A stretch of 37,610 nucleotides of DNA, taken from the NCBI GenBank assembly GCA_017540825.1, contig JAFYAH010000034.1:1-37610 (forward strand), read 5' to 3'. A program made the translations under genes and the position numbers. The notes under the pieces are model-generated. The model worked only from the letters and a program-made list of their open reading frames with translations, ran no database searches and was not told where the DNA came from. This DNA comes from Candidatus Methanomethylophilaceae archaeon (lineage in GTDB: Archaea > Thermoplasmatota > Thermoplasmata > Methanomassiliicoccales > Methanomethylophilaceae). Positions 7,736 through 22,316 of the stretch are shown here, piece after piece (positions within the stretch are counted from its first letter, which is position 1; each line of letters begins with the position of its first letter).

Positions 7736-7747
7736 TCTATAAATACA
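7736..7747 (+). promoter_or_regulatory. TATA box of the DUF4430/ABC importer operon
   Basis: TATAAATA (7738-7745) lies 65 bases before the first gene of the importer operon, predicting a transcription start near 7768 and a leader of about 40 bases. The rest of 7561-7735 shows no gene. Confidence 0.6.
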
Positions 7748-7809: not shown

Positions 7810-9492
7810 ATGAGCAGCAAGAACATAGGAATCCTGATTGCGGTCGCAGCCGCGATCGTGATCATCGCTGCCGCGGCCTTCTTCATGAGCAACGGAGGGA
7901 ACGGCGGGAACGGCGGCGACGACAAAGAGGTGACCCCTGTCGCGAAGATCCTCATAGAGGACCAGGACGGGGTCTACTTCTGGACCCAGGGCTCCGGGAG
8001 CACCATCGCCGACTGCCTCGGCAGCGCCTCCCCCGGCGTCACCGTCACCATGACCGACAGCAGCTTCGGCAAGTACGTCGGCGCCATCAACGGGCTGGCG
8101 GCCGACGGGAACAGCTACTGGGCCATATACTCCTACAAGGACGGGGCATGGAAGATGTCCGACCTCGGCGCATCGTCCATGAAGACCAAGGAGAACCCCG
8201 TCGTGGGATTCTTCTACGTGACCACCGAGTCAGCCGAGCCCTACGGCGTCGTAGCCGGAGGGCCTGGAAAGGTCACCGTGCCCGCCGTCTCCAGCGCGAA
8301 GGTCTGGGACGGCAGGACCGACGGGACCATATTCTGCATCCAGGGCATGTCCGGCATGTACTTCTACATCAGCGACGCCACCGGCACGACCATGACCGAG
8401 AGGTTCAAGGCCGCGACCACCGCATACGGCGTCCCCTTCGAGGAGAGCAAGCGCGGCGGCATCAGCAGCTTGTTCGGGAAGGGCAGCGTCCCCAAGACCG
8501 ACTCCGAGGGCAACCCCATGACCGATCCCGAGACCGGCAGCACCGTCTACAACTACTGGGCCCAGTTCGGACTTGTCCGCGGCGTATGGGACTACATGAG
8601 CACCGGGCTGGCCAGCACCAAGGCCGACGACTACTCCCAGATGGCCATCGTCTACGGCGACGGAGGCATGGGGTCCGCTTTCGGCCTCACCGCTCCCGTC
8701 TATCCTGTCGAGGGCAGGGCAGTCGCGACCATCCTCGTCGAGGACCAGAACGGAGTCCGCTTCTGGGCCGAGGGGTCCGGAGAGACCATCGCCGACTGCC
8801 TCGCCGGCGCCTCCCCCGGGGTGACCTTCACCATGACCGACAGCAGCTTCGGCAAGTACGTCAGCGCCATCAACGGGCTGGCTGCCGACGGGAACAGCTA
8901 CTGGTGCATATATTCGTACAAGGGCGGGGACTGGATCATGTCCGACCTGGGGGTCTCCTCCATGAAGACCAGGGAGAACCCTGTCGTGGGATTCTTCTAC
9001 GTCACCGCCGAGAGCGTCGAGCCCTACGGGATCGTGGCCGGCGGGCCCGACAAGGTCGACGTCCCCTCCATCTCCAGCGCGAAGGTCTGGGACGGCAAGA
9101 CCGACGGGACCATATTCTGCATCCAGAGCATGTCCGGGCTGTACTTCTACATCAACGACAACACCGGGCCCCTGATGTCCGACAGGTTCAGGGCAGCCAC
9201 CACCGCCTACGGCGTCCCCTTCGACGAGAGCAGCTACGGCATAAGCAGCCTGTTCGGCATCGCCAGCGCCGTCAAGACCGACTCCGAGGGCAACCCCATG
9301 ACCGATCCCGAGACCGGATACACCGTCTACAACTACTGGGCCCAGTTCGGCCTCAAGGACGGCGCATGGAGCTACATGGACACCACCCTCCCCAACACCA
9401 ACGCCGCCGACTTCGCCCAGATGGCCATAGTCTACGGCGACGGAGGGATGGGATCCGCCTCAGGGCTGACCGCCCCGGTATACGTGGGCTGA
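7810..9492 (+). CDS. Membrane-anchored protein with duplicated DUF4430-like modules
   Basis: The 560-residue protein starts with one N-terminal hydrophobic helix (IGILIAVAAAIVIIAAAAFF, residues 6-25), then a Gly/Asn-rich spacer, so it is probably anchored and faces outward. The rest is a tandem duplication: residues about 44-300 and 304-560 are very similar in protein and DNA. Each half contains two DUF4430-like domains, a fold related to the cobalamin-cradling domain of transcobalamin/intrinsic factor. The first has NGLAADGNSYWAIYSY and the second STVYNYWAQFGL. It is the first gene of an importer operon, followed after 4 bases by the binding protein. I infer that it captures or presents a ligand at the cell surface. 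It ends in TGA. Confidence 0.8.
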   Translation: MSSKNIGILIAVAAAIVIIAAAAFFMSNGGNGGNGGDDKEVTPVAKILIEDQDGVYFWTQGSGSTIADCLGSASPGVTVTMTDSSFGKYVGAINGLAADGNSYWAIYSYKDGAWKMSDLGASSMKTKENPVVGFFYVTTESAEPYGVVAGGPGKVTVPAVSSAKVWDGRTDGTIFCIQGMSGMYFYISDATGTTMTERFKAATTAYGVPFEESKRGGISSLFGKGSVPKTDSEGNPMTDPETGSTVYNYWAQFGLVRGVWDYMSTGLASTKADDYSQMAIVYGDGGMGSAFGLTAPVYPVEGRAVATILVEDQNGVRFWAEGSGETIADCLAGASPGVTFTMTDSSFGKYVSAINGLAADGNSYWCIYSYKGGDWIMSDLGVSSMKTRENPVVGFFYVTAESVEPYGIVAGGPDKVDVPSISSAKVWDGKTDGTIFCIQSMSGLYFYINDNTGPLMSDRFRAATTAYGVPFDESSYGISSLFGIASAVKTDSEGNPMTDPETGYTVYNYWAQFGLKDGAWSYMDTTLPNTNAADFAQMAIVYGDGGMGSASGLTAPVYVG

Positions 9493-9496
9493 ACGC

Positions 9497-10903
9497 ATGT
9501 CCAAACTCTTTTCCAAACCCCTTCCCTCCCGCCGCTCGGACAGGTCCGTCCTCAGGGCAGCCCTCACGATAGGCCTCATACTGGCGGGAGCGGTCATCGC
9601 CGTGGCCGCCACCCCTTCCCACGAGCCTCCCAGGGCGCAGGGCATCATCCTAGATTTCGGAGGGTACGACATTTTTTATCAGGGGATGGAGGATGGAGGC
9701 TCCGACCCGGTCGAGTCCCTCGCGGACCTCTGCGACTACTACTCCATGACCGCCGTCTGGGACGGGGGCTCCCTGAGCAGGGTCGTGAAGGACTCCGAGG
9801 AGTACCCCTCGCCCGGAGACGGTTCCGAATGGAGGCTGTACGTCAACGACAAGGGGACCGTCGGATGGAAGGCGTTCGCGGGCGATCCGAAGAGCGTGCG
9901 CCTGGACGGATACGCCGCGGTGTGCTGGGGGCTCTGCGGCGAAGGCGAGGTCCCGACTCCGGGCGTGGACGCCACGGGGACCTGCTTCTACGGCTACGGG
10001 CAGAGCTACCGCATAGTGTCGCTGGCTCCGTCCTGCACCGAGACGATATGCGCCACCGGGGCCGGAGACGTCATAGTCGGGGCAGACGAGTTCAGCAACT
10101 ACCCAGGATACATCAGGGACAGGCTGGCGACCGGCCAGATAGTGTCGGTCGGCGGATACACCAACCCCAGCTACGAGACCGTGGCCAGGCTCAACCCCGA
10201 CATCGTGATAGGCGTGGGCGACCAGTCGGTGCACCGCTCCGTGATGGACAAGCTCAGGGCCCACGGCGTCCACTGCCTCGCGACGTTCCCCGGGGACAGC
10301 GTGAAGACGATCCTCGACAACACGTACATGGTCGGGGCCGCCATGAACTACCAGCTGAAGGCCGTCCAGACCATCTCGCAGATAGAGGATGCCCTGGACG
10401 CCCTCTCCTCGCAGCTGTCGGAGGGGCCTTCGGAAGCCTCCAAGGTGATGATCTCGCTGTCCGCCTCCAAGTCGCCATGGGTGGCCGGCGGGACGACGTA
10501 CGCTTCCGACGTCATCACCAGGGCCTTGTGCGTCAACATTTATTCCCAGGAGTCCGGCTGGGCGATGGTCAACAGCGAGACCGTGCCTGCCCGCGACCCC
10601 GACTACATAATCGTCGTCTCCTCCGACTACGGGAACACCGACCGGGAGTACGAGGACATGGTCTCCTCGCTCTCCGCGGAGTGGAGGAGCACGGCGGCTT
10701 TCGAGAACGGCAGCATCTACCTTCTCACGGAAGGGGCCACCGACCTGGCGTCGCGCCCCTCCACCCGCATAGCGCAGTTCACCGAACTGATGTGCAGGAT
10801 GGTCCAGCCGGGCGTCTTCGACGACGTCGACCTGCCGCTCCATATCGGCGACGACTACAGGGACTATCTCACCATCACGAAGGAGCTGGGGTTCGAGACA
10901 TGA
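9497..10903 (+). CDS. DUF4430-like domain fused to a BtuF/FepB-type substrate-binding protein
   Basis: The 468-residue protein has an N-terminal signal or anchor helix (LRAALTIGLILAGAVIAVAA, about residues 20-39). A DUF4430-like domain follows (about 48-150, containing WRLYVNDKGTVGWKAF). The rest (from RIVSLAPSCTETI to the end) is a class III periplasmic-binding-protein fold as in BtuF and siderophore-binding proteins: GADEFSNYPGYI, ETVARLNPDIVIG, and GGTTYASDVIT are typical. It should bind the ligand outside the membrane and deliver it to the permease encoded next. Its stop overlaps the next start by ATGA, so translation is probably coupled. Substrate unproven; corrinoid or iron chelate are the likely classes. 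Confidence 0.85.
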   Translation: MSKLFSKPLPSRRSDRSVLRAALTIGLILAGAVIAVAATPSHEPPRAQGIILDFGGYDIFYQGMEDGGSDPVESLADLCDYYSMTAVWDGGSLSRVVKDSEEYPSPGDGSEWRLYVNDKGTVGWKAFAGDPKSVRLDGYAAVCWGLCGEGEVPTPGVDATGTCFYGYGQSYRIVSLAPSCTETICATGAGDVIVGADEFSNYPGYIRDRLATGQIVSVGGYTNPSYETVARLNPDIVIGVGDQSVHRSVMDKLRAHGVHCLATFPGDSVKTILDNTYMVGAAMNYQLKAVQTISQIEDALDALSSQLSEGPSEASKVMISLSASKSPWVAGGTTYASDVITRALCVNIYSQESGWAMVNSETVPARDPDYIIVVSSDYGNTDREYEDMVSSLSAEWRSTAAFENGSIYLLTEGATDLASRPSTRIAQFTELMCRMVQPGVFDDVDLPLHIGDDYRDYLTITKELGFET

Positions 10904-13900
10904 CCGGCATGAGAAAAGCTTGGATTTGGGCCGTCTTGATGGCGGTCGCCGTGGCCGTCCTTCTTTCGGCGGCGCTTCCTTCGGGCGCCCAGGACGACAG
11001 GGCACACGTGCTTATTGACAAAGGGAACGGCGACGTCTTCTGGTCTCCCGCTTCAGGGGGGACGATAGGGGAGGCGCTGTCCTCGGCGGCCGCGTCCAGC
11101 GGTCTGGACATATCGTTCCAGGGAGGAGCGGTCTCGGTCGACGGGGTCACCGATGCGACGGTCGGATCCCAGACCGTGGGATGGAGGCTGTACGAGTGGG
11201 ACGGCGTATGGAGGGACGTGACCTCCGAGAAGGACGTCGGCTCTCCCCTCGTCTCCTCGATAGCCCTCGGCCTGTACCCCGCCGGGTTCGTCCCCACCGA
11301 GACGCCGGCGCACAAGGGGTCCTGGACGCAGGTCCGCGGGAACTCCTCCATGGACGGGACGATGCCCGCTGACCTGGACTCCGGCGAGGCGATGTCCGTC
11401 GAGGTCGCCTGGTCCAGAGGGTCCAACGACTACGTCACGGGGACGGTCCTGGTGGCGCGCGGGAACGCCTACCCGTTCTTCAACGGAGGGTACATGAACA
11501 CCCAGAGCACCCCCGCGCTCTACTGCGTGGACTGGCTCACCGGCGAGACCGAGTGGGTGATGGAGGTCCCCGCAGGGGTCGGGTACGAGACAATGACAGG
11601 CTGCATCGCCGGCGGGTACTACTACCTCCCCACCAGCTACGGCTATATCTACAGGGTCCCGCTCGAGGGCCCCGGGGAGGACTCCCTCTACGTGCAGCTG
11701 TCCTCGAGGCTCCTGACCGGCCCCGACAAGGCCCCTGCGGTCACATATGTGGGGTACAGGGAGGCTGGGTCGGACGAATACATGGAAGCGCCCGTCGAGG
11801 CCCTGGACACGAAGGCCTTTGACGTTCCGGTCAAGGTCGGAAGCGTCTACGACATCGTCATCTCCGACGGGGAGAGGACGTACAGGGGCAGCATGGCCGT
11901 GAACACCGCGGACGCCCTCGGCGTCAAGATATCCGGTTCCACGGCGGAGGACAAGGCCCTGATAGCCGACTTCTCTTCGCGCGTCACCCATTCCTACTCG
12001 GACGTAGTCAAGGCGTACGTCTCCAAGGCCAGGTCCCCGGACATGGAGGGCCGCACTATATACAACACCGGCCCCGCCTCCCTGACGTTCTGCGACGGAG
12101 CGATCTTCTTCGGCACCAGCGCAGGGTACGTCTACGCCATGGACATGGACCTGAACGTGCTCTGGAAGGCCGACGTGGCAGGGCAGAGCTACTTCGACGC
12201 CGTCATGGTGGACGACGGGAGGGTCTTCTCCGGAACGTACAGCGGGAAGCTATACGCCCTGGACTCGTCCACCGGCGAAATAGTGTCCTATGTCAAGGCC
12301 GCCGACTACAAGTCAGCCGTCCACGGGGACGGAGGAAGGGTCAGCACCCCCGTGAAGGTGGGCGACGTCCTGTTCTTCTCCACATCGGACGGGCTGGGGA
12401 TGAGCAGCACCCAGGGCGGGTTCGCCGCATACTCATTCAAGGACGACAGGTTCGAGGAGCTCTTCTCCGAGTCCTCCTACGGCCAGGCGTCCACGTTCAT
12501 GACCCCCGTTTCCTCGGAAGGCTTCGAGGGCGTCTACTTCGCCACGGACTACGGCCTGATGAGGCTGTCCACGGGCATGAAGCTTGAGATCCTCAACGAG
12601 AGCCTGACGGGCATCCGCGCCTCCCCCGTGCTGGCGAACGGGACCGACCTCCTGATGCAGGACTACACCTACGCCAAGAACGGCGTCGGAGGGGCCATGT
12701 ACAGGGTGTCCCTGGACGGGAAGGTCCTCGCCGAGTTCCAGAGGCCGTCCGAGGTCGACCAGTGGTGCATGAGCCCCATGGTGGCCGTGGGGGACCGCAT
12801 ATGCGCAGGGACCGACAACGGGTTCTTCATCGTCAAGGGGGAGATGCCGTCCGTGTCGGAGAACGAGGAGGGCGGAGGGATGAATCCAGTCTGGATCGGC
12901 GTCGGCGCATTCGTCGCGGCCATCGCGGCCCTTCTGATCGCAGCGTACGTGCTGGCTAGGAGGCGCGGCATGTCCCTGGGGAAGTACCTGGCGTCCCTGA
13001 GCGGCTTCCGCAACGACGCCATGTCCAAGACGAAGGCCAACAAGCGCCGTCTTATGTTCGTCCTCGCGACGGGCATTGTCCTGATGCTGGTGATGTTCGT
13101 CTGCTGCCTGGCCTACGGCCCTTCGATGAGCATGTCCCCCTGGGAGGCCATATCGGACCTGGCCTCCGCCGTGGGCAAGGGCGGGAACGGCCTAACCTTG
13201 CCGGAGCTGGTGGTCTACGAGTCCCGCCTTCCCCGCGCCCTCGCGGCCATAGGGGTGGGCGTGGGCCTCGCGATAGCAGGCTGCGTCTACCAGGCGGTAA
13301 TCCGCAACCCGATGGTCGACCCGTACATCATGGGGGTGTCCTCCGGGGCGGGGACCTTCGCCGTGGCCGGGATCGCCAGCGGCTTCACGTTCTTCGGGCT
13401 CCTGGCCAACTCGGACTACATGATCCCGGTGCTCGCGGTCGTGGGCGGGCTCCTCGCCTTCGGTCTGACCATGCTCCTGGCCTCCAAGGCCGGAAGCACC
13501 CCCACCGGCTTCGTCCTCGCGGGGGTGGTCATCGGGCTGGCATTCACGTCGGTACAGACCGTGATCCTCACCACGTCGGACTCCGACAAGCTCCACAACG
13601 CGGTCTCGTGGCTGTACGGGAGCTTCACCAGCGTGGACTGGGGGACGGTATGGCTGATCATGGTCCCGTCGATATTCATATCGCTGGCCCTGTTCATATG
13701 GGCGAAGGAGCTGAACCTGGTCCTGCTCGGGGACGACAACGCCCAGCAGATGGGCCTGAACGTGAAGAGGTTCGACGCCTTCATGCTGATAATGGCCTCT
13801 GTCCTGACTTCCGTCTGCGTCGCATTCGTCGGAATAATCGGGTTCGTGGGCCTGGTAGTGCCTCACGTGTGCCGCATGATACTCGGCGGCGACCACAGGC

Positions 13901-14073
13901 TGGTCCTCCCCGCCTCCATGGTCCTCGGGGCAGCGCTGATGCTCCTCGCCGACCTGCTGGCCAGGATGATAATGATACCCTTGGAGCTCCCGGTAGGCGC
14001 CATAACCACCGTGGTGGGGGTCCCGCTTTTCGCCTATCTTCTTGTAAAGAGGGGGAAGATGTACAATGGATGA
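10900..14073 (+). CDS. Fusion of DUF4430-like domain, PQQ-type beta-propeller and FecCD/BtuC permease
   Basis: This is a single uninterrupted frame of 1057 residues. In order: signal/anchor helix (WIWAVLMAVAVAVLLSAAL, about 7-25); DUF4430-like domain (about 32-110, with VGWRLYEWDGVWRDV); PQQ/YVTN-like beta-propeller (about 140-655, repeated blades such as IFFGTSAGYVYAMDMDLNVLWKAD and VFSGTYSGKLYALDSSTGEI); a transmembrane helix (about 663-685) followed by ARRR; then a complete FecCD permease (about 708-1057) with SRLPRALAAIGVGVGLAIAG, NPMVDPYIMGVSSGA and GFVGLVVPHVCRMILG. The permease part has about 350 residues, the normal full length. Internal ATGs at 12970 and 13021 lack a ribosome site. 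The positive charge after the helix fits a cytoplasmic link into the permease. It overlaps the ATPase gene by 8 bases. Confidence 0.88.
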   Translation: MTGMRKAWIWAVLMAVAVAVLLSAALPSGAQDDRAHVLIDKGNGDVFWSPASGGTIGEALSSAAASSGLDISFQGGAVSVDGVTDATVGSQTVGWRLYEWDGVWRDVTSEKDVGSPLVSSIALGLYPAGFVPTETPAHKGSWTQVRGNSSMDGTMPADLDSGEAMSVEVAWSRGSNDYVTGTVLVARGNAYPFFNGGYMNTQSTPALYCVDWLTGETEWVMEVPAGVGYETMTGCIAGGYYYLPTSYGYIYRVPLEGPGEDSLYVQLSSRLLTGPDKAPAVTYVGYREAGSDEYMEAPVEALDTKAFDVPVKVGSVYDIVISDGERTYRGSMAVNTADALGVKISGSTAEDKALIADFSSRVTHSYSDVVKAYVSKARSPDMEGRTIYNTGPASLTFCDGAIFFGTSAGYVYAMDMDLNVLWKADVAGQSYFDAVMVDDGRVFSGTYSGKLYALDSSTGEIVSYVKAADYKSAVHGDGGRVSTPVKVGDVLFFSTSDGLGMSSTQGGFAAYSFKDDRFEELFSESSYGQASTFMTPVSSEGFEGVYFATDYGLMRLSTGMKLEILNESLTGIRASPVLANGTDLLMQDYTYAKNGVGGAMYRVSLDGKVLAEFQRPSEVDQWCMSPMVAVGDRICAGTDNGFFIVKGEMPSVSENEEGGGMNPVWIGVGAFVAAIAALLIAAYVLARRRGMSLGKYLASLSGFRNDAMSKTKANKRRLMFVLATGIVLMLVMFVCCLAYGPSMSMSPWEAISDLASAVGKGGNGLTLPELVVYESRLPRALAAIGVGVGLAIAGCVYQAVIRNPMVDPYIMGVSSGAGTFAVAGIASGFTFFGLLANSDYMIPVLAVVGGLLAFGLTMLLASKAGSTPTGFVLAGVVIGLAFTSVQTVILTTSDSDKLHNAVSWLYGSFTSVDWGTVWLIMVPSIFISLALFIWAKELNLVLLGDDNAQQMGLNVKRFDAFMLIMASVLTSVCVAFVGIIGFVGLVVPHVCRMILGGDHRLVLPASMVLGAALMLLADLLARMIMIPLELPVGAITTVVGVPLFAYLLVKRGKMYNG

Positions 14074-14869
14074 AGCGCCGCTCTTGGAGCTCAGGAATCT
14101 GAACAAGGTCTACGACGACGGGTTCCACGCCGTCCGCGACGTGTCCTTCAGCCTGCCGGCGGGGAAGCTGGTGGGGCTGATCGGACCGAACGGGTGCGGG
14201 AAGTCCACCATGATGAGGTGCATCAACAAGATGCATCCTATCACGTCCGGGGACGTCCTGATAGACGGTAGGTCGGTATTGGACCAGAGCGTCGCGGAGA
14301 TAGCCAGGCAGGTCGCCAACGTCCCCGCGGAGCTGAAGAACAGCTTCGGCCTGACGGTGTACGAGACGGTCATGCTGGGGCGCTACCCCCACCTAAGGAA
14401 CCTGTGGTGGGAGACCGAGGAGGACGAGACCGAGGTCGTGGAGGCCATGAGGAAGTTCGGCGTACAGCACCTACAGGACAGGCAGATCAACATGCTCTCC
14501 TCGGGAGAGATGCAGAGGGTCCTGATAGCCAAGGCTTACGTCCAGAACCCCAGGCTGATGCTCGTCGACGAGCCCACCTCCCATCTGGACATGAAGTACA
14601 AGTTGAACGTCATGGAGTACCTCCGCGCGATGGTCCGCCAGAACATGACCGCCCTGGTTGCGGAGCACGACATCTCCCTGATGGCCAGGTACTGCGACCT
14701 GTGCGTGATTATGAAGAAAGGGGAGCTGGTCGCCATCGGGAACCCCAGGGAGGTCATCACCGAGGATCTAGTCCGGGACGTGTACGACGTGGTGGCCAAC
14801 GTGGGGTTGGACAAGGACGGGGAGATCTACGTCCTCCCTAAGAGGTTCGTGGGGGACTACGAGCTCTGA
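14066..14869 (+). CDS. ABC transporter ATPase of the BtuD/FepC type
   Basis: This 267-residue ATPase powers the importer. It has Walker A GPNGCGKST (about 41-49), the Q-loop region with PAELKNSF, the signature LSSGEMQRV in place of LSGGQ, Walker B LMLVDEPTS followed by HLDMK, and the H-loop histidine in VAEHD. It starts inside the end of the permease fusion gene (8-base overlap), which fits translational coupling and a 1:1 transporter complex. The family imports vitamin B12, haem or ferric siderophores. The length and order of motifs are normal. It is the last gene of the operon and ends in TGA 44 bases before trm5. Confidence 0.93.
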   Translation: MDEAPLLELRNLNKVYDDGFHAVRDVSFSLPAGKLVGLIGPNGCGKSTMMRCINKMHPITSGDVLIDGRSVLDQSVAEIARQVANVPAELKNSFGLTVYETVMLGRYPHLRNLWWETEEDETEVVEAMRKFGVQHLQDRQINMLSSGEMQRVLIAKAYVQNPRLMLVDEPTSHLDMKYKLNVMEYLRAMVRQNMTALVAEHDISLMARYCDLCVIMKKGELVAIGNPREVITEDLVRDVYDVVANVGLDKDGEIYVLPKRFVGDYEL

Positions 14870-19575: not shown

Positions 19576-20535
19576 TCAGGCTCTGTTGAACTTCGACTTG
19601 GGCTGTCTGCAGCGGGGGCAGCGCCAGTCGTCGGGAAGGTCCTCGAACGCCGTTCCAGGCGGGATGCCGTGCGCAGGGTCCCCTTCAGCAGGGTCGTAGA
19701 CGAACCCGCACACGGAGCAGACGTACTTCCCGGAGGCCGTCTTGAAGGTAACCTCTCCGGGAGGGATGGTCTCGGGGGGATCGGACAGATCGACGATCCT
19801 CCTGCCTTCGAGGTTCTCGTATCCCTGGGGGGTGTGGGTCGACAGGTACACTGTCGGGTGATGCGACACGAACTCCCTCACGCGGTCCAGGGTCTCGCGG
19901 GTGGCGTCGCGGTCCTCGTATACGACGGAGAGCTTGTTCTCGTACAGAGCCTCGTCCACGTAAGTGATGTCGCCGTGCATCATGTAGAACAGCCCGTCGT
20001 CCTCGACGATCACCAGGCTGTTCCCCTTGGTGTGGCCGGTCGCCTTTATGTAATGGATGTTCTCGGCCACGGTCTGGGACTCGGGGAAGCAGAAGTACGG
20101 GCCGTCGTCGAAGTCGACCGGCACTATGTTGGGGATCCCCTGCAGCTCCTGGGCGTCGAGCTCGGCCCTGTTCACGTATATCTTGGCGTTGGGGAACGAC
20201 TTCAGCTCCCCGGAATGGTCGCTGTGCTTGTGCGTCAGCAGGATCTTCGTCACCTGCTCCGGCCTGTAGCCCAGGGCGGCGAAGGCCTCCATGTACGTGC
20301 AGATGTCCTTGCCTGTGTATATCAAGGTCTTCTCGTCTGGGACCTCCTCGGGAGTGCCTGCGGGGATCCCCGTGTCCACCAGGATGACCTCGTCGCCGGT
20401 GTCTATGAGGTAGTTCGTGAGCCCGGAGCGGTAGCGCTTCTCCGGATCGAAGGCCTCCATGCCCTCCTCGCCTCCGAAGGCGAACCCCTGGGTCGCGAAC
20501 CCGTCCGTCCTGAACCTTATGGCTTTTATCTGCAT
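19576..20535 (-). CDS. Metallo-beta-lactamase-fold hydrolase with C-terminal rubredoxin
   Basis: This 319-residue fusion has an N-terminal lactonase-like MBL domain with the metal motif THKHSDH (H102, H104, D106, H107), the later His in [11 protein letters not shown] and Asp in [10 protein letters not shown] short linker leads to a complete rubredoxin domain from about residue 269, with [12 protein letters not shown] (C273, C276) and DWRCPRC (C306, C309) as the Fe(Cys)4 site. The rubredoxin suggests electron transfer, though the MBL part looks like a hydrolase rather than a flavodiiron protein. Start 20535 is chosen because TTTATCAA on the minus strand (about 20560-20570) predicts a leaderless start there; 20550 is an alternative. 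Confidence 0.85.
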
Positions 20536-20615
20536 GAGCGACGGAAGCATGTGCGGGTTGATAAACAAGGCTGCGGACGGAACCGGAGCAGACTCATGAG
20601 TTGATGGAAAAGATG

Positions 20616-20702
20616 TGGTGCAAGGGATGGGATTTGAACCCACGGACCACTAAGGACAAGGCCCTCAACCTTGCGTCGTTGGCCATGCTTGACTACCCTT
20701 GC
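20616..20702 (-). tRNA. tRNA-Leu (anticodon GAG)
   Basis: On the minus strand the acceptor GCAAGGG pairs with CCCTTGC, followed by discriminator A and an encoded CCA (20616-20618). The anticodon stem CAAGG/CCTTG encloses TTGAGGG, giving anticodon GAG. A long variable arm and a T-arm GTGGG-TTCAAAT-CCCAT support a class II leucine tRNA. TATAAATG (about 20731-20738) upstream is its likely TATA box and overlaps the stop region of the GNAT gene. Confidence 0.93.
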
Positions 20703-20733: not shown

Positions 20734-21267
20734 TTATACCTTTCTATAGTCCAGACCTCGATCCGCGAATCTGAAGGGAGTGCCGGCGGCGCCCATCAGG
20801 GAGGAGTACTCCTCTTTGGAGAGGCCGCCCGTGCACAGCACCGTCCATCCGGCTCCTGCGAACTCGGAACGGATCCCGCACGGGACCAGTCCGTGGCGGG
20901 CGTAGAATCTGACCCTCCTGCTCCGCTCGTCCTGCTCCGGCCCGGGGGACTCCGCGTTGAGGAAGACGCGCCTCCCCTCCATCCTCTTCTTCAGAAGCTC
21001 CAGCGCCTCCCCTCCTATGCCTCTCGAGCGGAGCCCCTCGGACACGGCCAGGAAGCCGAGGAAGCACACGTCCCCGCGGACGAGGTACAGCATGAGCCCT
21101 GCCGCCGCCCCGTCGCGCACGATCGCCTAGAAGCCGTTGCCGTCCTCCGACCCGACCTCCAGCATCTCGTCCACTGATACGCGCTCGTTCGCGGGGAAGG
21201 ACTCCTCGTTGATCCTGGACACGTCCGGGAGGAAGGGGGAGCCCCTGCTCAGAGGGACGAGCTCCAT
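20734..21267 (-). CDS. GNAT-family acetyltransferase with an in-frame UAG codon
   Basis: The frame starts at ATG 21267 (MELVPLSRGSPFLPDVSRIN), overlapping the end of the methyltransferase gene by 19 bases. At residue 47 it meets TAG (21127-21129), then continues in the same frame with AIVRDGAAAGLMLYL and the GNAT core FLGFLAVSEGLRSRGIGGEAL to a TAA. The total of 177 codons equals the length of the related GNAT at 2534-3046, and both halves align to that family. No chromosomal gene in the window ends in TAG, and this order is known to decode UAG as pyrrolysine. Readthrough is therefore plausible, probably at a position normally held by an aromatic residue. A recent nonsense mutation is the alternative. 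The part after the TAG alone lacks the N-terminal substrate half. Confidence 0.6.
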
Positions 21268-22316
21268 TCTCGGCGCTTCCAGCTGTACGCCGCCTTCCCG
21301 AGCGCCAGGACGTTCTCGTCTGGGCTGGTGATGGGGGTCTCGCACCCGGGGGCCAGGATGAACCCTCCGCCCTCGGCCGCCGCGTCCATTATCCTGTAGC
21401 ACTCCTTCGTTATGGACTCCGGCGTCCCCGACATCATCTGCGTCACGGGGTCTATGTTCCCCATGATGGCGAACTTCCCTGCGGCGTTGGCCTTCGCCTT
21501 CGCGGGGTCCACGGCGTGGTCGAAGCTCAGGCAGTCCGCCCCGGTCTCAGGAAGCTGCTTCATCGTTTCCAGGGTGTTGCCGCAAATGTGGACGAAGGCG
21601 GGGATGGAATTGTCCATGGCCTTCACGTCGGCGACGACCTTGGCTATGTGCTCCTTGGAGTACTCCGCGAACATGTCTGGGGGGATGAGGTCCTGCGACG
21701 AGGTGGGGTCGGCCATCCACATGACGGTGGAGCCCGAGTCGATCATGCACCTCTGCATGTCCGACACCAGGACGGTGACCTTCTTTATCAGCGCCTTCAC
21801 GAGGTCCGGGTCCATGAACGTGTTCATGATCATGTTCTCCACGCCCATCACATATCCCGCGGTGGTTATGGGGCCCCAGGACAGGCCGCATATGTGGAGG
21901 TCCTCCGGCAGGATCCTGGCCGTCTCCCGGATGCTCTCGGTGAACACCTTGGTGTAGTTCGGGCAGGTCCTCGCGTCGTAGGGGTCGAACAGCTCCAGGC
22001 GGTCTATGTCCTCCTGGGTGTCCACGATGTGCCCCGGGACGCGGCCGTAGTCGTTCTCGGGGAAGTCCACCTTCATCCCCAGGTCCAGGAACGGCACCTG
22101 GGAGTCGAGGATGGGCTTGACGAAGTCCGAGAGCGTCCTCATGGAGTAGTCGACGGACACCCTGGCGGATATCTTCGGGTCCCATCTGGCGGCCTGTACG
22201 GTCTCGCCAGCGCTGTGGGCGGCCGTGGCCAGCGCGAAGTTGTTCACGGGGACCCTCTCCCCTTCCTCGAACCTTAGGGCCGCCTCGACGCACGCCCTGT
22301 GCCCTGCATCTTTCAT
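21249..22316 (-). CDS. UroD-family methylcobamide:coenzyme M methyltransferase-like protein (MtaA/MtbA type)
   Basis: This 355-residue TIM-barrel protein belongs to the uroporphyrinogen decarboxylase superfamily. It has the zinc ligands of the corrinoid:CoM methyltransferases: His243 and Cys245 in FVHICGNT and Cys325 in LAPGCETPI. These enzymes move a methyl group from a corrinoid protein to coenzyme M in methylotrophic methanogenesis. MtaA, MtbA and other methyltransferase paralogues cannot be told apart by eye, and a corrinoid partner gene is not in the window. The preceding gene on the strand is a dehydrogenase homologue 33 bases away; the following GNAT overlaps it. It ends in TGA. Confidence 0.85.
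   Translation of the reverse strand: MKDAGHRACVEAALRFEEGERVPVNNFALATAAHSAGETVQAARWDPKISARVSVDYSMRTLSDFVKPILDSQVPFLDLGMKVDFPENDYGRVPGHIVDTQEDIDRLELFDPYDARTCPNYTKVFTESIRETARILPEDLHICGLSWGPITTAGYVMGVENMIMNTFMDPDLVKALIKKVTVLVSDMQRCMIDSGSTVMWMADPTSSQDLIPPDMFAEYSKEHIAKVVADVKAMDNSIPAFVHICGNTLETMKQLPETGADCLSFDHAVDPAKAKANAAGKFAIMGNIDPVTQMMSGTPESITKECYRIMDAAAEGGGFILAPGCETPITSPDENVLALGKAAYSWKRREWSSSL

Follow-up and report, generated by a model that had tools for sequence, protein, structure and literature searches.

A probable corrinoid importer with B12-carrier lid-like modules and a propeller-permease in a gut methanogen

Known B12 systems and the importer operon

The BtuCDF importer, described in Escherichia coli and represented in archaea by the models PRK09535 and PRK09536, combines a binding protein, a FecCD permease and an ATPase in one operon. 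Here we analyze an operon of the same make-up, located at positions 7810-14869 of a 37,610-nucleotide window (the whole stretch of DNA analyzed) from a gut methane-making Methanomethylophilaceae archaeon with a genome of 2.37 Mb. It differs from BtuCDF in that its proteins score below the curated cut-offs for that system, and in that it includes extra outer modules and a propeller within the permease chain; a large in-line outer part on the permease is unusual for this transporter class. We consider it probable that its products form an ATP-binding cassette (ABC) importer of type II (BtuCDF class) for corrinoids, i.e., cobamides and probably cobinamide, whose outer face is enlarged by six modules with the beta-domain fold of transcobalamin and intrinsic factor, and by a propeller in line with the permease.

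The additions resemble parts of other known systems. The modules have the fold of the beta-domain lid of transcobalamin, haptocorrin and intrinsic factor (Z ~11), with a sequence similarity that is weak but first-ranked; unlike those carriers, they are found in tandem and on transporter subunits, in a genome in which the alpha-barrel partner PF01122 has no match at E <=1. BtuG and BtuH of Bacteroides are also extra outer proteins and bind B12, and BtuG is a seven-bladed propeller; as portrayed in parts of the sources (PMC6143338, PMC8941943), however, they are outer-surface lipoproteins working with BtuB, whereas the propeller described here is PQQ-type, probably has eight blades, and lies inside the permease chain. 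In Mycobacterium, the FecB-Rv3035 complex (9p3f) also brings together a propeller and a binding protein of FecB type, but as two separate proteins outside any transport operon, according to portions of PMC12802301.

A BtuCDF system in Methanomassiliicoccales is already known. Passages of an earlier study describe abundant BtuC proteins in five clades in this order, and a BtuCDF set whose neighbors are adhesin-like proteins (PMC10804542); the words 'propeller', 'DUF', 'fusion' and 'fused' are absent from its main text. No paper describing the fusion of lid modules and a propeller to this importer was found in the open-licence literature searched. A Lacticaseibacillus proteome study (PMC9963975) reportedly names both the Pfam family DUF4430, to which some of the modules come close, and cobalamin. 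Both are also named in sections of an article on the vertebrate binders (PMC4350170). Because methylotrophic methanogens of the gut rely on corrinoid methyltransferases, the way in which they obtain B12 matters for their methane output and for how they compete with the bacteria around them.

The four genes of the operon, defined by open reading frame (ORF) calls, lie on the plus strand, as do all of their parts described below. P0001 (560 aa; 7810..9492) consists of an N-terminal membrane helix and a pair of tandem units, each made up of two lid-like modules; P0002 (468 aa; 9497..10903) is a membrane-anchored binding protein with an N-terminal module; P0003 (1057 aa; 10900..14073) is a single chain of module, propeller and permease; and P0004 (267 aa; 14066..14869) is an ABC ATPase (Pfam ABC_tran). 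A FecCD permease, a Peripla_BP_2 binding protein and an ABC ATPase are thus found within one operon. A gap of 4 bases separates the first two genes; at the next two junctions the genes overlap, by 4 and by 8 bases. The start of P0003 was set at 10900, within a longer open frame (9829-14073), as this position overlaps the P0002 stop codon and agrees with the relatives. Upstream, at 7738..7745, the sequence includes a TATA-like element, TATAAATA, which we take to be a possible promoter of the operon, judging from the archaeal TATA consensus. A scan for sigma-70 style promoters, a type wrong for an archaeon in any case, gave no match. The preliminary description of this DNA as an importer operon with lid-like modules in three of its four proteins is borne out by the genes, the domains and the profile-profile links given below.

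For comparison we used the best 80 of 127 related loci, among which 59 archaeal full-length loci were annotated (L085-L142, L151). They come from Methanomethylophilaceae of rumen, omasum and deer colon, and, going by species names, of termites.

Lid-like modules and the beta-domains of B12 carriers

The operon contains six modules, namely four in P0001, one in P0002 and one in P0003. Those of P0001 are module 1 of unit 1, which is transcobalamin beta-domain-like (7936..8226), module 2 of unit 1 (8308..8718), and their counterparts in unit 2 (8719..9012 and 9085..9489). The two units are a tandem duplication with a period of 780-783 bases and 82-85% identity in DNA, and modules 1 and 2 within a unit are themselves related (hhalign E 1.3e-28). 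P0001 is also double in three other loci (L068, L069 and L088), with units far more diverged than those in the window; these duplications and that in the window may be separate events.

A structural model of the P0001 unit, built from 20 rows, reached a predicted local distance difference test score (pLDDT) of 92.9. When this model was compared with the PDB using Foldseek, the first match was the beta-domain of human transcobalamin with cyanocobalamin (E 7.7e-4). Upon realignment, 15 entries scored Z 10.6-11.5, and the next, unrelated entry scored Z 6.3. Fourteen of these are B12 carriers (transcobalamin, haptocorrin and intrinsic factor), which match module 1 at Z 10.6-11.2 over 92-93 residues; the other is a Ruminococcus gnavus protein listed with DUF4430 (3u7z; Z 11.5). 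Module 1 is modeled with the strand-strand-helix-strand-strand, ubiquitin-like order of the carrier beta-domain, and residues 36-126 of the P0003 model have the same order of strands and helix. Sequence comparison points the same way: a profile of module 1 (M1), searched against 177,635 PDB sequences with E 10 as the limit, gave three hits, namely two entries of intrinsic factor (E 0.014) and one of transcobalamin-1 (1.2). The aligned stretch starts at the helix, includes the hairpin after it and ends at a conserved YW. The kinship with transcobalamin that had been proposed for the modules is therefore upheld both by the fold and by this search, in which intrinsic factor ranks first. A profile of the whole P0001 family gave two matches in the PDB (E 0.53 and 1.1), which we judged to be chance.

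The modules of the three proteins are linked to one another, despite the silence of Pfam on those of P0002 and P0003. Comparison of the family profiles gave E 2.7e-9 for P0001-P0003, 5.2e-9 for P0002-P0003 and 7.6e-6 for P0001-P0002. In controls with shuffled columns (40 per pair), five of six module pairs outscored every shuffle, the weakest of the five being M1 with the P0002 module; the pair of module 2 (M2) and the P0003 module failed this test, in that 1 of 40 shuffles scored equally high.

Sequence and prediction thus yield four genes, modules, propeller, permease and, elsewhere, linkage to corrinoid genes, and from these we infer that the modules may bind corrinoids. Parts of the literature on the vertebrate proteins are consistent with such a role. 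The isolated beta-domain of human transcobalamin binds without the alpha-domain, and was crystallized with cobalamin and with cobinamide (sections of PMC5599065); in the rat protein the ligand is anchored by strands from beta3 on, and the beta-domain reportedly touches the ligand first (sections of PMC11107200). We tentatively propose, rating it somewhat less likely than not, an archaeal machine for B12 capture and hand-over, in which beta-domains of transcobalamin type, working with no alpha-barrel and placed in tandem as well as on the binding protein and the propeller-permease, bind corrinoids (including cobinamide) outside and pass them inward. P0001, tethered by one helix, would most likely offer four lids and catch the corrinoid on the outside of the cell. 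The module of P0002 would help to load or cover its own BtuF-like pocket, much as the mammalian lid closes over its barrel. The P0003 module and propeller would form a landing platform, which might dock P0002 as Rv3035 docks FecB, or hand over or hold the ligand above the channel. If true, vertebrate B12 carriers would share their lid with prokaryotic proteins that work in B12 uptake. The finding also connects a domain family of unknown function with this uptake in prokaryotes, and opens to direct test whether human intrinsic factor is related, through its lid, to an uptake system of microbes.

It is less likely, in our estimate, that the operon is a corrinoid importer in which modules and propeller are a mere scaffold that docks the binding protein on the permease, or spaces it from the surface, with no ligand contact. 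The match of the propeller to Rv3035, solved with FecB (9p3f), is in line with docking, and the Mycobacterium complex serves the envelope rather than transport (parts of PMC12802301); the lid fold, being ubiquitin-like, is common (parts of PMC11107200); and the modules of P0002 and P0003 have diverged beyond recognition by Pfam. Against a scaffold, however, P0001 consists of modules alone behind its anchor, and module 1 resembles intrinsic factor through the helix and the following hairpin, strands that anchor the ligand in transcobalamin (parts of PMC11107200).

Binding protein and propeller-permease

P0002 comprises a module that is lid-like by profile comparison only (9632..9961; no Pfam match) and a BtuF-like Peripla_BP_2 domain (10010..10732; E 1.1e-30). 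The pocket was compared with that of E. coli BtuF at positions taken to be its ligand contacts, most of which are conserved. A tryptophan is found at W196 and at F168 in 12/12 rows of the P0002 family, and an aromatic residue at Y50 and W66 in 12/12; R246 is kept in 11/12 and D242 in 10/12, while W85 and F162 are changed. This pattern is absent from E. coli FecB and FepB. The fusion of module and binding protein was found, by ORF picking, in 50 of the 59 archaeal loci; in the other nine it is cut by contig ends or masked by longer overlapping frames.

P0003 carries an N-terminal module (10999..11319) identified by profile comparison and in the model, with no Pfam match. It continues with a PQQ-type beta-propeller (11377..12849; PQQ_2 E 1e-7), an extra predicted membrane helix at residues 663-688 (12886..12963) and a FecCD, BtuC-like permease domain (13081..14049; FecCD E 3.7e-84). 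The model (pLDDT 77.7, predicted template modeling score 0.62) shows an N-terminal helix, the module, the propeller and a BtuC-like membrane part, which matches BtuC (2qi9) at Z 34.6. Among the matches listed, the propeller is closest to YxaL, BamB and the designed protein Cake8; from its matches to YxaL (Z 36.5) and Cake8 (35.1), it probably has eight blades. Rv3035, in its complex with the FecB binding protein (9p3f), is matched as well. BtuG is not among these matches, which are a realignment of Foldseek's list, so its absence is uninformative. Helix 663-688 is followed by a linker rich in lysine and arginine; in the topology that we infer, helix and linker would put the propeller on the outer side of the membrane and let the permease start on the inner side, as is usual.

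The fusion of propeller and permease is present in 33 of the 59 loci, and is not an assembly error, since single-contig genomes are among the matches. The outer part of P0003 was matched (E <=1e-5) in 85 of 147 genomes of the order, unfused propellers included, and matches outside the family were weak. In four loci (L116, L117, L132, L242), the fused protein is followed by a plain permease and then the ATPase, as if forming a heterodimer with one propeller.

A propeller protein that carries a module but is not fused to a permease is found in a second system of the host genome (L083, G000:C52:11000-30000; 9182-12289, minus strand) and in L054. Its neighbors are a separate, split-subfamily permease and proteins containing BspA leucine-rich repeats (LRR), Big_2 or Flg_new repeats. 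The presence of such repeats, beside the transporter, in sister-subfamily proteins with module-like parts could be taken to mean that these archaea use the modules as part of a general kit for the cell surface or for adhesion. We regard this as very improbable, since the window's subfamily has its modules in the binding protein and the permease themselves, and P0001 is without an adhesin repeat.

Corrinoid-gene linkage, permease tree and identity of the ligand

In 9 of the 59 archaeal loci, the ATPase gene is followed by cobD, cbiB, cbiS and cobS genes. In one representative of each, CbiB and CobS score above their cut-offs, CobD 239 bits (cut-off 290.6) and CbiS 245.2 (cut-off 250). To count independently of the operon, we scored the surroundings of every cbiB of the family among the 147 genomes of the order, 88 of which have one. 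A fused permease lies near cbiB in 20/88 genomes, at a gap of 1665-6295 bases, on the same strand in 17 cases and divergently in 3; cobD, and usually cbiS and cobS, accompany it. Because genomes are related, the six genera represented (g3, g7, g8, g9, g11, g12) are a safer count than the 20 genomes. Another 7/88 have a plain permease upstream on the same strand, 2/88 a module-bearing binding protein with a plain permease, 4/88 an ATPase or binding protein alone near a contig edge, and 3/88 another permease; none of these was seen in 30/88 with >=7 kb upstream and in 22/88 with less. The surroundings examined total 1.26 Mb, ~1% of each genome, in which by our own estimate ~1 fused case is expected by chance. 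The linkage of the propeller-permease to cbiB in 20/88 genomes thus gives the corrinoid assignment independent support.

A permease tree of 93 FecCD domains, including 22 of the host genome's 28 other permeases, is consistent with this assignment. It places every one of the 36 fused permeases in a single clade of 53 rows (100/99), together with plain permeases from cob loci, and four further plain cob-locus permeases stand beside it (94/83). The window's 10-row subclade (100/98) includes cob-linked members from genomes G037, G041 and G063, and 20 of the 22 other host-genome rows fall outside the 63-row clade. The tree suggests descent from a btuFCD-cobD-cbiB-cbiS-cobS cluster of the plain kind, whose binding protein and permease later acquired the additional domains. 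L216 and L217, which combine a module on the binding protein with a plain permease, resemble an intermediate. The operon of the window's genus appears to have moved away from the cob genes.

Several observations weigh against a corrinoid importer with lid modules. In the window, and in all 26 examined genomes of its genus, no fused permease stands beside cbiB. The curated B12 cut-offs are all missed (PRK09535, 214.6 of 461 bits; PRK09536, 218.2 of 537; PRK03379, 47.3 of 234); that PRK09535 and PRK09536, the archaeal B12 models, are the top NCBIfam hits for permease and ATPase counts in favor of B12. E. coli BtuC lies outside the fused-permease clade, the placement of the E. coli permeases not being settled by the tree. 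The solved relative nearest to the P0002 family by sequence is 4m7o, which is named iron-binding (E 9.8e-32), with BtuF behind it (1.5e-15), and part of the BtuF contact pattern is seen in 2/5 other binding proteins from relatives. As to the modules, all window proteins of the operon miss the gathering cut-off of DUF4430 (PF14478): P0001 comes close (E 2.2e-4; 22.1 bits against 23.8), whereas P0002, P0003 and their isolated N-terminal modules give no match. At E <=1, DUF4430 matches 3/10 full P0001-family rows and 7/20 single units, and L097, a relative of the P0001 unit, is the sole one among the matched rows to exceed the cut-off (28.2 bits). Finally, in 7/59 loci the immediate neighbors of the operon are a gene that joins a CfbC-like NifH and a NifD-like part (~763 aa), and a second NifD-like gene (L089, 4317-7869 of the record shared with L080; also L094, L095, L099, L138, L098 and L151). 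From its sequence, this pair is tetrapyrrole-reductase-like rather than a B12 gene, and may act on a tetrapyrrole.

These neighbors, the window copy's distance from cob genes and the nearness of the P0002 family to the iron-named structure and, by sequence, to heme binders in the PDB, would also fit the same machine serving another ligand, such as a different tetrapyrrole (F430 or a precursor, or heme) or a ferric chelate. So would the host's 29 FecCD permease matches (28 beside P0003), a number that implies many ligands. We nevertheless judge another ligand improbable, given the carrier-lid fold, the corrinoid linkage in six genera, the permease clade and a BtuF-like pocket pattern that FecB and FepB do not share. 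Import of cobamides, as first proposed for this operon, is hence backed by the cobD-cbiB-cbiS-cobS linkage in other genera and by the tree, and not by the surroundings of the window's own copy. The same proposal had pointed to cobalamin riboswitches as a check, and neither the window nor any of six cob-linked relatives yielded one. It had also named a methyltransferase (21249-22316) as a user of cobamides; this gene has a match to the URO-D family, which is compatible with a methylcobamide methyltransferase.

Elsewhere in the window, positions 126-2327 encode a 733 aa protein with BspA-type leucine-rich repeats. A tRNA-Leu(gag) gene (20616-20702, minus strand) and a metallo-beta-lactamase/rubredoxin gene (19576-20643 in its longest frame) overlap at the 5' end of the latter, which therefore probably starts further in.

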